This document shows, in pieces, positions 2,678 to 21,036 of a DNA stretch of 31,812 nucleotides. Position 1 is the first letter of the stretch. The number at the start of each line of letters is the position of its first letter. The notes beneath the pieces were generated by a model. It ran no database searches. It was not told the origin of the DNA and saw only the letters and a program-made list of their open reading frames with translations. This stretch comes from a virus: the IMG/VR virus record IMGVR_UViG_3300031774_000078, positions 1-31,812 of that record. One strand, 5' to 3'. Position numbers and translations under genes: made by a program.

Positions 2678-5600
2678 ATGGGCCAAGGGCTATTTCTTCA
2701 CAAGTATGATACGAAAGCCAAGCTGTATGACACAGAAGGCACCGGCAGTTTAGTAAATCAGTATAAGCTGACTAACCAAAAATACATTACTGACAATGCG
2801 TCTCTAAGAGCAAACAATCTATCGGACCTGGCTGACGCAGGCACGGCTCGAACAAATCTTGGCGTTGCAATTGGTTCAGACGTTCAAGCGTATGACGCTC
2901 AATTGGCTTCACTTGCTGCCCTTTCTGCAGCAGCAGTAAACAACCTGTCGGACATCTCTTTACTATCACATGCTGACGGCGCGATCATTGTCTCTGATGG
3001 CACTGACTGGGTTGCAGAGTCAGGCTCTACAGCGCGAAGCTCTTTGGGATTAGGGTCCATCTCGACCCAGAACTCGAACAGCGTCACAATTACCGGCGGC
3101 TCGGTATCGGGCATTACCGACATTGCGATTGCTGATGGTGGCACAGGCGCATCAAGTGCATCAGAAGCCAGAGCAAACCTCGGTGTCGCCATTGGTAGCG
3201 ATGTTCAAGCCTTCGACGCACAGCTTGCTGACGTTGCGGGTCTTGAACCAGCAGATGGCGCTGTGGTTATTGGTGACGGAAGCAACTTTGTGGCTGAATC
3301 AGGCGCAACCCTCAGAACATCTGTTGGTGTTGGCACAAGCGACTCCCCACAGTTTGCAGGAATTGAGCTAGGGCACGCATCGGATAACACCTTGACAGCG
3401 TCAAGCGGAGACTTGAGCATCGAGGGTAACGTCGTTTATCGCGCTGGCGGTACGGACGTTCCGTTGACAGACGGTGGTACTGGTGCAAGCAGTGCATCTG
3501 CAGCTCGCACCAACCTGGGTCTTGCTATTGGTTCAGACGTTCAAGCCTGGGACGCACAGTTGGACTCACTTGCTGCGTTTAGTGCCGCTAAGGTTACAAA
3601 TCTTGACGCTCTTGGCGGGCTTACTTCAGCAGCCAACAAAATTCCAATGTTCTCTGGCAGTGGCACTGCTGGACTCATCTCATTCTTGGATGAGGATGGA
3701 CTTACAAGCAATAGCGCATCAGCCGTACCTTCACAGCAGAGCGTAAAGGCTTTCGTTGAGGCTCAAGTTCAAGGCTTGGACATTAAGGATTCAGTGCGAG
3801 TTGCTTCGAGTGCCAACGTCGCAGGCTCCTATAGCTCAGGCGCTTTGACGGTTTCAAGTGCTGGCGTTCTTACGATTGACGGCGGCAATATTGCGTTAGG
3901 CGACCGCGTACTATTGAAAGATCAGACGACCGGCACTCAGAACGGTATCTATGAATGCACTACAGCGGGAACAACGGGGACGGCGGCTGCCCCCGACGAT
4001 TCAACGGCGGCGTCTGGTATTGGAGACGTATATAATACCTCAAGCGCCTTTACGCTTGATTTGTCTTCTTTGCCGTCATCTGGTGCCATAGATGTAAACG
4101 GCGGCAACATTCCGATGTCAGGATCCTCTAGCTATCAAGGGTCAACGGTAACGATTGCCGGAGGATCTGCGATCTTGGTTTCTGATGGTACAAATACTCT
4201 GGCGCTTCGGAAAAACTCGTCTTCGGGGACCGTAAGCAACGGCAGCGGCTACCAGTACGTGTATCTCGATTCTCGATATACTTATATTGACGAGCTTTCA
4301 GATACAACAAGCATCAACTATGCTGACATTACCTCAATCACTGTATACCCGTTAAGCTCAAAGGGTTTGAAGGTGCTTCTTGAAAGTGGTAGCGGCGGGT
4401 CGGATCATAATGTTTCTGGCTTTATCTTGGATAGCGCATGGGCGGGAAGTACGGTTAGCGCGGGCTTTTATGTTCGGTATGAGCCGGTGACAAATCAAGC
4501 CTATTACTGGAAGGTCACACAAGATCTTGACAATGGCGACACGTTTTTGAGTGCGGATTTTGATGCGACAAATTCCCACGCAACTACCATCAGCTCATTT
4601 ACTTTGCCGCTATCGAGATCAAATCAGTTGAAACTGTCTTTTGTTGGAGCGACTTCAGTCGCATCGGGTGATGCCGCCGTCCTTACTCGTGCGGACGACT
4701 TTGATAGTGATGCCGACATCTCTCCAGGCGCATTCTGCTTCGTTGAAGAGGGCACGATTGCTTCTGATACAGGGTTTGTTCTATCGACAAATAACCCTAT
4801 CACCTTAGACAGTACCGCACTCTCCTTCACGCAGTTTAGTAGTGCGGGAGTACCAAGTGCCGGAGATGGTCTTGAAACGTCTGGAAATGTATTCTCAGTT
4901 GACCTTAAGGCTAACGGCGGTCTCGTCATCGAGTCTTCAGAGGTTGCAGTTGATCTTGCAGCAAGCAGCATCACCGGAACTCTGGCTATTGGTGATGGTG
5001 GTACTGGGGCTACATCCGCTAGTACGGCTCGAAGTGCGCTCGGTGTGGCAATCGGCTCTGATGTTCAGGCGTTCGATGCTCAACTGGCAGATATCGCGGG
5101 ATTAACGCCAACTGACGGTCATGTGATTGTCGGTGATGGATCAAACTTTGTTGCAGAGTCGGGCGCTACAGCTCGTGCCTCTCTTGGACTCGCAATTGGC
5201 TCTGATGTTCAAGCATACGATGCCCAACTGGCTTCAATTGCTGGACTATCTGATGCTGATGGCAAGTTCATTGTTGGTTCATCCTCAGGCTTCGTGGCTG
5301 AAGACGGCGCAACCGCCCGGGCAAGCCTTGGTGTCGCTATTGGCTCAGACGTGCAGGCGTATGACGCACAGTTGGCGGACGTTGCAGGATTGAGCCCGGC
5401 AGACGGCTCATTCATTGTTGGCGATGGCTCAAACTTTGTCGCTGAGTCTGGCGCAACAGTAAGAACCTCGCTTGGAATGGACATGGCTGCAGGACAGGGC
5501 GTTGCACTGCCAAGCGGCACGTCGATTCAGACCATAACTAGCAGTAATCCTGCATCCCCAAGCACCGTTTCGGATCTTCGCGCACAATATGTCTTTGACA

Positions 5601-19443: not shown

Positions 19444-19950
19444 CTACCCTAGCACTCCGTTTTGCCTGCGACCATACTCTGCTATAAGAAGAGCGTCCGC
19501 AAGCCCGTCATGGGGCTTTCTCGCCCTCTCAGACTTACGCAGGTCAGTTGAAGGGAACAGTCTTTTGGCTCCTAGTATATTCCTATCCTTCCCGTCACCG
19601 GGAACACCTGAAAGCATTTTCGAGGTCCATGTTCTTGGGGCCACAATGTTAAGCGATACTTCGCATGAAATTATTAGCGCAACCCATATGCCGTAGCCAT
19701 AACCCGTCTTAAATGTTGAGCTCACGCCCTGACCTGGTCTTGCGCTTTGTGATTCAATGAACGCCACCTTGGCGCCAGAGTCCTTGATAAGGTCCCTCAT
19801 TGCGCCAATATCGTACTCCCTTCTGGACTTGCCTACCGCTATCGTCGGCGTAATCGACACGCTTTCAACCTCTCCGCCGAAAGAGAGGACGGCGATGCCG
19901 CCAGACAGTCCGGGGTCTACTCCAATTATCAAACCTATTCTCCTATCCAT
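19444..19950 (-). CDS. RuvC-like Holliday junction resolvase
   Basis: Using the ATG at 19950 the product is 168 residues; an in-frame ATG at 19971 would overlap the methyltransferase genes further. The RNase H-like fold is clear: IIGVDPGLSGG with catalytic Asp12, FIESQ with Glu66, and KPHDGLADALLIAEYG with Asp148 and Asp152. These match the RuvC catalytic acids. The enzyme would resolve or debranch four-way and branched DNA made by the neighbouring exonuclease, annealing protein and SSB, or before packaging. It overlaps the end of the methyltransferase gene by 16 nt, so the genes are co-transcribed. Confidence 0.8.
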   Translation of the reverse strand: MDRRIGLIIGVDPGLSGGIAVLSFGGEVESVSITPTIAVGKSRREYDIGAMRDLIKDSGAKVAFIESQSARPGQGVSSTFKTGYGYGIWVALIISCEVSLNIVAPRTWTSKMLSGVPGDGKDRNILGAKRLFPSTDLRKSERARKPHDGLADALLIAEYGRRQNGVLG

Positions 19951-20801
19951 CCGTCGGAAAGAATTGTCCATGCTGCAGCCGCCACGATTGGAACCTGCCC
20001 GTTTCCAATGGCTTTAAGCCTGTCCACCCTATCGGCCAGCCCATGAGCCACTCGACCCACGTCGGGTTCAGTGGTCCACCAGCCAGAAACGGCAAACTCG
20101 GGCCGTCTCTGAACTCCTCTGAAGGGCTGCCGCAATCCCTCGCATCGTGAGACCTCGGCGTCGGCCACCTGTTCTTTGTCTCCATGTCTGGCCACGAGTT
20201 CCCTTCCGCCATTCCTGCCAGTGTCAGGCGAACCTTCCCCAGCCAGCCTCCCTCCGACTTTCCTGCCGCGCCTCCTTTGTTTGACTTCCATGTCTGGTTT
20301 GCGGTTGGTGTTGGAAGCAAGAATCCACATTCTGTTTCTTTGATGAAGCGCACCGAGGTGCCTAGCTCCCAGCACGCACCACCTGACGTCATACCCCAGG
20401 CTGGTAAGTCCTTCGATGACGGTGCCGAGTCCACGGGTACGCAGGTACGGACTGTTTTCCGCGAAGACAAAACGAGGTTCAACCTCTCCAACAACCCTGA
20501 GCATCTGGAACCATAGTCCTGAACGGTTTCCGGCAATTCCTTCACGCCGACCCGCAGAGCTGATGTCTTGACATGGGAACCCTCCCGAAATAACGTCAAT
20601 TGACCCCCTCCAGGGTCTCCCGTCGAAGGTGTTGATGTCGTCCCAGACTGGGAAGCTTTCGAGAGATCCATCGCGCTGTCTGGCGATGAGTGAGCTTCTT
20701 GCATAGGAATCAATCTCAACAGCGCATCGGGTGCGCCATCCAAGGAGTCTCCCTCCCAGGATGCCTCCTCCTGCTCCTGCAAATAGTGCCAACTCATTCA
20801 T
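19935..20801 (-). CDS. DNA cytosine-C5 methyltransferase (Dcm-type)
   Basis: The product is 288 residues. Conserved motifs are in order: motif I LFAGAGGG (6-13), motif II acidic Glu29, motif IV GGFPCQDIS with catalytic Cys77 (73-81), motif VI ENS (115-117), motif VIII HQRNR (153-157), a variable target-recognition region with VADAEVSRC, and motifs IX/X DRVDRLKAIGNGQVP (about 257-271). The set is complete, so the enzyme should be active, transferring methyl groups to C5 of cytosine and probably protecting phage DNA from host restriction. The recognition sequence cannot be read from the gene. Nearly the whole frame is shared with a second ORF in another frame on the same strand. Its ATG overlaps the upstream gene's stop in ATGAATGA. 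Confidence 0.9.
   Translation of the reverse strand: MNELALFAGAGGGILGGRLLGWRTRCAVEIDSYARSSLIARQRDGSLESFPVWDDINTFDGRPWRGSIDVISGGFPCQDISSAGRREGIAGNRSGLWFQMLRVVGEVEPRFVFAENSPYLRTRGLGTVIEGLTSLGYDVRWCVLGARHLGALHQRNRMWILASNTNRKPDMEVKQRRRGRKVGGRLAGEGSPDTGRNGGRELVARHGDKEQVADAEVSRCEGLRQPFRGVQRRPEFAVSGWWTTEPDVGRVAHGLADRVDRLKAIGNGQVPIVAAAAWTILSDGWIGE
19943..20797 (-). CDS. Overlapping-frame protein nested in the methyltransferase gene
   Basis: This 284-residue frame starts 4 nt after the methyltransferase ATG and stops 8 nt before its stop, on the same strand. It is not random shadow sequence: it carries motifs I recognise from phage proteins found at dcm loci, HVKTSAL (about 75-81), LPTPTA (161-166), WPTPRSHDA (211-219) and LNPTWVEWLMGWPIGWTGL (243-261). 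The W/L-P-T-P blocks coincide with the VADAEVSR-type target-recognition region of the methyltransferase frame. The protein is Trp/Pro/Ser-rich, without signal or membrane span. Its function is unknown. It may be a partner of the methyltransferase or a target-recognition subunit. In-frame relatives of the C-terminal block occur fused to some Dcm proteins, as I recall. Confidence 0.65.
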   Translation of the reverse strand: MSWHYLQEQEEASWEGDSLDGAPDALLRLIPMQEAHSSPDSAMDLSKASQSGTTSTPSTGDPGGGQLTLFREGSHVKTSALRVGVKELPETVQDYGSRCSGLLERLNLVLSSRKTVRTCVPVDSAPSSKDLPAWGMTSGGACWELGTSVRFIKETECGFLLPTPTANQTWKSNKGGAAGKSEGGWLGKVRLTLAGMAEGNSWPDMETKNRWPTPRSHDARDCGSPSEEFRDGPSLPFLAGGPLNPTWVEWLMGWPIGWTGLKPLETGRFQSWRLQHGQFFPTDG

Positions 20802-21036
20802 GGGTCTCCACGTTCAGCCTGGTCTCTATCCAGCAGTGCGCCCCACAGGACAAAGGGTTGTGAGGTCGATACACTACCCTGGCAACCTCTTCACCAGCCT
20901 CATTGCGAATAACGGCCTCAGATGCATACCTGTTGTCCTTGTAGGTCTTCACCGTTAAGACGGGCTTTGCATCCTTGACCGCAATCTTCCTGTTGGACTT
21001 AATTACATGTTGGTTTACATGAATTATTGTTTTCAT
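20794..21036 (-). CDS. Small conserved phage protein, unknown function
   Basis: The product is 80 residues: MKTIIHVNQHVIKSNRK, then PVLTVKTYKDN, EVARVVYRPHNPLSCGAHCWIETR and an acidic end. I recall small phage proteins with this IHVNQHVIKSN...RVVYRP...PLSCGA layout next to replication or methyltransferase genes, but know of no function. Its stop TGA is the last part of the ATGAATGA junction in which both overlapping methyltransferase-locus frames start, so translation of all three is probably coupled. It begins 6 nt after the SSB stop. Confidence 0.65.
   Translation of the reverse strand: MKTIIHVNQHVIKSNRKIAVKDAKPVLTVKTYKDNRYASEAVIRNEAGEEVARVVYRPHNPLSCGAHCWIETRLNVETHE

Follow-up and report, generated by a model that had tools for sequence, protein, structure and literature searches.

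The window, meaning the whole stretch of viral DNA that was analysed (31,812 nucleotides, positions 1 to 31,812 of the IMG/VR record IMGVR_UViG_3300031774_000078), includes a minus-strand segment, 19935-20801 (867 bases), in which two frames of the same strand are open. A two-frame locus had been reported here in a first-pass annotation made from the DNA alone, and both ORFs were recovered in place, together with all of the sequence blocks quoted for them. ORF2 starts 4 nt later and ends 8 nt earlier than ORF1, and each ORF2 codon takes its first two bases from positions 2 and 3 of an ORF1 codon and its third from position 1 of the following one. The ORFs and the features around their starts are as follows, the products of ORF1 and ORF2 being referred to as alpha and beta.

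20801..19935, minus strand: alpha (ORF1, frame 1), 288 aa, C5-cytosine methyltransferase large domain with motifs I-VIII and X
20797..19943, minus strand: beta (ORF2, +1 frame), 284 aa, fully nested in ORF1, putative small-domain subunit
20795..20801, minus strand: ATGAATG double start (alpha ATG, 20801-20799; beta ATG, 20797-20795)
20806..20809, minus strand: Shine-Dalgarno-like GGAG, 4 nt ahead of the alpha ATG and 8 nt ahead of the beta ATG
20794..21036, minus strand: upstream gene, 80 aa, matching phrog_8676 (5e-26, function unknown), with a TGA stop that overlaps the beta start

The start region of the two ORFs reads GTGGAGacccATGaATGag, and the nested ORF2 begins with ATGAATGAG. The GGAG spacings of 4 (alpha) and 8 (beta) are also the commonest over 120 homologues. 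Among the 213 nested loci tallied, the beta start codon was ATG in 194 and GTG in 8, and the alpha start codon varied (ATG, GTG or TTG). The start is nearly always NTGAATGAGYTG in the first 120 loci, although ORF1 alone permits other Asn, Glu and Leu codons. The upstream gene is small and conserved, its stop overlaps the double start, and translational coupling of this gene to the beta start is possible.

The neighbouring genes, identified by profile matches, encode an SSB, a Sak annealase, a YqaJ/RecE exonuclease and a RuvC-like resolvase, and the neighbourhood is a phage recombination module. The RuvC-like ORF (19971-19444, minus strand) begins within the methyltransferase gene in the third frame, and up to 29 nt (19943-19971, minus strand) may therefore code in all three frames; later start codons are equally possible for this ORF.

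ORF1 matched PF00145 (5e-32) and phrog_363 (7e-60). All of the motifs that mark the large domain of a C5-cytosine methyltransferase (I, IV, VI, VIII and X) are found in alpha, and its key residues are unchanged across 96 homologues.

20763..20783, minus strand: motif I region, FAGAGGG, located in the translation
20568..20582, minus strand: motif IV, GFPCQ, with the catalytic Cys; PCQ is invariant in 96 homologues
20451..20465, minus strand: motif VI, FAENS, located in the translation
20331..20345, minus strand: motif VIII, HQRNR, located in the translation
19989..20006, minus strand: motif X, GNGQVP, assigned from column identity and codon-position rates

The AlphaFold2 model of ORF1 has a pLDDT of 84-98 over most of residues 1-170 and of 94 at motif X, and a pLDDT below 50 over residues 192-265 (the variable region and motif IX stretch), so that alpha is predicted to be disordered over about residues 192-265. 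The alignments used for ORF1 and ORF2 were built without one phage-collection row. With Foldseek, the alpha model matched M.HhaI/M.HaeIII over about 168 columns (E about 1e-13).

ORF2 matched phrog_1008 (labelled DNA methyltransferase, 2e-17) and phrog_26627 (1e-17) and had no match in Pfam or NCBIfam, and hmmsearch of the ORF2 profile against PDB found no solved structure. For ORF2, AlphaFold2 gave a model that is poor as a whole (pLDDT 56) and best at about residues 211-284 (block means 62-86), which share their DNA with the low-pLDDT stretch of alpha. The Foldseek search with this model was empty, with no small-domain match detectable by fold. Assignment of ORF2 to a known fold type was dropped for these reasons: the pLDDT of 56, the empty Foldseek result and the PDB hmmsearch with nothing usable. 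Three families that match the +1-frame protein, phrog_1008 (DNA methyltransferase), phrog_26627 and phrog_35493 (the last two of unknown function), resemble the small-domain subunit. The conserved blocks of beta are listed below; beta also has N-terminal and middle segments that overlap alpha motifs I-VIII.

20300..20320, minus strand: first PTP block, LLPTPTA, where the variable (TRD) region begins; common to split and single-chain relatives
20141..20170, minus strand: second PTP block, RWPTPRSHDA; frame 1 here reads VADAEVSR
20024..20071, minus strand: motif IX, LNPTWVEWLMGWPIGW; frame 1 here reads TEPDVGRVAHGLADRV

The gene is moderately GC-rich (57 %), and long spurious ORFs are frequent in GC-rich genes. 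ORF2 might on these grounds be an untranslated by-product of codon bias or composition. The 80 best loci were retrieved by ORF1 alone, to avoid selection on ORF2, and reduced to 57 representatives sharing <75 % amino acid identity. Synonymous shuffling kept the ORF1 protein and its codon usage, and stops were counted in the other frames. Shuffled genes contained a mean of 5.3 frame +1 stops per gene, and the real genes contained none in 57/57 (each P<0.05). Totalled over the set, 0 frame +1 stops were observed where 196 were expected in the part encoding motifs I-VIII and 0 where 86 were expected in the rest, about 282 in all. The third frame (+2) follows the shuffle prediction, with 841 stops observed and 744 expected. 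In the reciprocal test (49 representatives), 186 frame 1 stops were expected across the variable region and motif IX given ORF2, and 0 were found. The shuffle tests ignore shared ancestry, and their z-scores are not probabilities; stop counts and pairwise position rates are far less dependent on ancestry. As no frame +1 stop was found in 57/57 representatives, including genes of only 46-50 % GC, a chance ORF is excluded. With the start codon and the motif blocks conserved as well, an explanation from composition is almost certainly wrong. Full-length dual coding, as proposed in the first-pass annotation, is thereby borne out. Purifying selection acts on both frames, which are kept open along their whole length in diverged relatives, and the constraint on both that had been anticipated is seen in the stop counts, in column identity and in divergence at four-fold-degenerate sites.

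Divergence at four-fold-degenerate ORF1 sites is 0.21-0.22 over codons 1-70, 0.365 at codons 71-95, 0.126 over codons 96-120 and 0.171 over codons 121-165. This pattern suggests that the N-terminal and middle segments of beta are linked by a loose stretch and, as judged from the aligned genes, about residues 1-68 and 95-165 of beta carry constraint of their own.

The frame that does most of the coding changes along the gene. Codon-position rates were taken from 48 independent pairs of relatives sharing 70-97 % nucleotide identity, with positions numbered in the ORF1 frame. The difference rates at positions 1, 2 and 3 are.094/.046/.208 for motifs I-VIII and.098/.061/.250 for motif X, with.170/.104/.402 in the flanking-gene control (33 genes), versus.360/.163/.168 for the variable region and.162/.051/.048 for motif IX. 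In motifs I-VIII and X the fast position is 3. In the variable region and motif IX it is 1, which serves ORF2 as wobble base, and frame +1 is therefore the main coding frame over these two. Column identity over the 96 homologues is led by frame 1 at codons 1-160 and 261-280 and by frame +1 at codons 201-260. At ORF2 residues 201-220, frame 1 identity is 0.20 and ORF2 alone predicts 0.19. At motif IX, column identity is 0.86 in frame +1 versus 0.71 in frame 1. The frame 1 value (codons 241-260) exceeds the 0.45 forced by ORF2 alone, so alpha has some constraint of its own there. Codon rates, column conservation and AlphaFold2 are three independent lines that agree on the frame assignment. Of the earlier statements, the one that frame 1 holds every C5-methyltransferase motif must accordingly be corrected, and the one that VADAEVSR in this frame is the target-recognition region is not supported, as the variable region and the canonical motif IX lie in frame +1, the main coding frame there.

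A search with a relative of ORF2 led to actinophages with two adjacent genes, both annotated as DNA methylase. In Roosevelt gp77/76, Dylan gp7/6 and Heather gp35/36, the first gene contains motifs I-VIII and then stops, and the second, in the +1 frame, contains LPTPxAxD blocks, LxxxFxEWMMGxxxGW and motif X (GNGV). The split layout recurs in Andrew gp43/44, with a 239-nt overlap. The second genes of these actinophages match both phrog_1008 and phrog_116, the latter in its C-terminal part; the N-terminal part of phrog_116, which is one single family, matches the actinophage first genes and alpha. All of these parts (motifs I-VIII, PTP blocks, LxxxFxEWMMGxPxGW and motif X) are found in one frame and one chain in Shauna1 gp67, Fitzgerald gp4, Wachhund gp69 and McProf gp6. 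Graduation gp47, Trax gp78 and a further IMG/VR locus (L191) are single-chain forms without the PTP repeats. One locus (L185), closely related to a split +1 pair (L184), has one fused ORF through the PTP blocks and motif IX; it was rejected as a clean natural fusion, being frameshifted again at motif X.

The ORF2 profile aligned to the profile of the split beta proteins over ORF2 residues of about 73-169 (hhalign, E=5.5e-24), and motif IX aligned to the single-chain enzymes (hhalign, E=3.4e-8). By these alignments, beta is homologous to the C-terminal part of single-chain methyltransferases. With HMMER, the single-chain IX-X region falls in register on M.HhaI 274-307 (MGYPDSY ... GNSVV) at a score, -2.4 bits, that is not significant, so that this link rests on motif spacing and the in-frame relatives. 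The split-beta C-terminus had no direct match in PDB or Pfam, or reached PF00145 at 0.16 only. As the single-chain relatives have the WPTP and LNPxWVEWLMGWPxGW blocks in frame, these blocks represent the variable (TRD) region and motif IX. The TRD of beta is a putative one, assigned from its position between motifs VIII and IX and from single-chain homology. Motif IX and the target-recognition region are thus found in beta and not in alpha, on single-chain alignments and codon-position rates, the link to M.HhaI being weak. The first-pass annotation had taken the partner for a separate protein of unknown function. Its blocks belong instead to the same enzyme, as its variable region and motif IX.

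This homology bears on a reading in which frame 1 encodes a complete methyltransferase with a motif IX of its own (EPxVGRVAxGVxxRVDRL) and frame +1 an unrelated, overprinted protein, e.g. a regulator or anti-restriction protein. Conservation of frame 1 over motif IX past what ORF2 forces (0.71 versus 0.45), its freedom from stops there, and the extra N-terminal segments of beta with constraint of their own would fit it. However, the frame +1 blocks are those of the C-terminal half of single-chain methyltransferases, frame +1 is identified as the main coding frame by the fast position 1 across the variable region and in motif IX, and alpha 192-265 is predicted to be disordered. We consider this reading unlikely. 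Programmed frameshifting, by +1 after motif VIII and back after motif IX, would instead produce a single-chain enzyme from the gene and make the ORF2 start incidental. The main coding frame does change exactly at the domain borders, and single-chain relatives exist, but frameshifting has no need of a nearly invariant beta start at +4, of a beta frame open upstream of the shift point (0 stops versus 196 expected, with reduced four-fold-site divergence) or of a frame 1 free of stops across the variable region and in motif IX (0 versus 186). All three count against it, and we rate it as quite improbable.

The nested arrangement is widespread. Relatives of ORF2 were found in at least about 600 stretches of viral contigs and at 351 places in GTDB genomes. 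Motif IX in frame +1 and motif X in frame 1, with both frames open, were present in 78/79 loci retrieved with ORF1 and 78/80 retrieved with ORF2. The stop-free second-frame homologues in many independent phages that the dual-coding proposal called for thus exist. In all, the nested form occurs at several hundred phage, prophage and plasmid loci in several bacterial phyla, and is present even where alpha is only about 28-36 % identical (SG4, Likha). It was also found in E. coli, in a prophage region sharing 94.5 % identity with the gene of Salmonella phage S9-5, on a Leptospira plasmid, and in further genomes, among them those of Pseudomonas, Acinetobacter and Halomonas and verrucomicrobial ones. 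Acinetobacter phage ABMM1 is another carrier, like S9-5. Of the nested loci that were opened, those of Likha and its relatives were the only ones deposited as two fully overlapping genes.

One frame is broken in a few loci, namely alpha in L001, L206, L207 and L231 and beta in L066/L140. The L001 locus (positions 2997-3791), a close ORF2 relative (50 % identity), has a stop in the methyltransferase frame at about codon 95 and an intact ORF2; this stop is either a sequencing error or decay. The L066/L140 locus (one contig) has one internal ORF2 stop, at codon 144, with the remainder conserved, and is the sole such case in the set selected by the methyltransferase. In L206, L207 and L270, all from bacterial genomes, alpha ends just past motif VIII and beta is open, and motif X remains in frame 1 in L206 and L207 despite the alpha stop. 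These three are possible intermediates between the nested and split forms. Short nested versions (about 225-245 aa), almost devoid of PTP blocks, are found on a P. aeruginosa plasmid (L170), in Klebsiella phage BUCT711 (L168) and in Pseudomonas phage phPA-G (L169), and may represent a natural minimal small domain.

Given the frames, the motif placement, the two-frame constraint and the homology of beta, all of them computational results, we conclude that the product of the locus is very probably one C5-cytosine DNA methyltransferase of two subunits, encoded on the same strand in overlapping frames. It is also likely, though less firmly so, that a single run of nucleotides encodes its two domains, one per frame, as obligate subunits (alpha and beta) with starts 4 nt apart, that the nested form is old and common, and that the N-terminal domain of beta is new and not present in single-chain enzymes. 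Alpha would be the large domain, responsible for cofactor binding and catalysis (PCQ) and carrying motif X. The part of alpha that joins motif VIII to motif X must be read through and looks unstructured in the model; it is probably no more than a tolerated linker. Beta would supply the missing small domain, with the variable target-reading region and motif IX, in addition to its N-terminal and middle segments. The division into two chains would coincide with the border between large and small domain. Ribosomes probably initiate at either ATG from the one Shine-Dalgarno site, so that one mRNA would serve for both chains. The two chains would then assemble, presumably as a heterodimer, into the active enzyme, with DNA specificity residing in beta. 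The assembled enzyme would methylate the DNA of the phage, most likely as protection from host restriction; this role is suggested by the early-module location and by the lack, in the genes scanned, of a recognised nuclease partner.

For the majority of inspected loci, the public annotation keeps a single frame or labels both 'DNA methyltransferase', so that the DNA-reading half is often missing or mislabelled. If the two-subunit reading is correct, many orphan phage methylases have been annotated, and perhaps tested, as half an enzyme. These loci would also supply a rare collection of full-length overlaps on one strand for which the biochemical function is known and nature provides hundreds of replicates; the switch of the main coding frame along a single gene is visible in them. 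The origin and maintenance of the overlap and the choice of start site would then be directly testable. Changes in the DNA-reading domain would have to be tolerated by the alpha linker in the other frame. The nested form occurs alongside single-chain and partly overlapping split forms.

No described phage case was found among open-access PMC papers searched for the motif string and for overlap plus methyltransferase. The nearest known case is M.EcoHK31I, a two-polypeptide C5-methyltransferase (YGGCCR) with a small subunit of 176 aa whose gene likewise uses an overlapping alternative frame. According to PMC3404938, which cites Lee 1995, the large subunit of M.EcoHK31I has motifs I-VIII and X, together with the predicted TRD, and a smaller polypeptide has motif IX. 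The same division, with I-VIII and X in one polypeptide and IX in another, is found at this locus. However, beta is longer here (284 aa), starts 4 nt after alpha and spans nearly the whole gene, and the PTP blocks of the variable region are in beta. We therefore place the locus with split methyltransferases like M.EcoHK31I by analogy of architecture and do not claim it as a family member by sequence.

M.AquI (two polypeptides, CYCGRG) is divided between motif VIII and motif IX (PMC3404938). It resembles the actinophage split of the Roosevelt gp77/76 type, with motif X in beta, whereas motif X is in alpha here and beta is fully nested in the other frame. Shauna1 gp67, Wachhund gp69 and Fitzgerald gp4 share a homologous large domain, the PTP blocks and motif IX with this locus, but in one frame and one chain, without dual coding. 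The large domain of M.HhaI and M.HaeIII is matched by alpha in sequence and fold; in these enzymes that chain includes the small domain as well, unlike here. On the best reading, what is new relative to enzymes of the M.EcoHK31I kind is a second subunit that is fully nested within the gene for the first.
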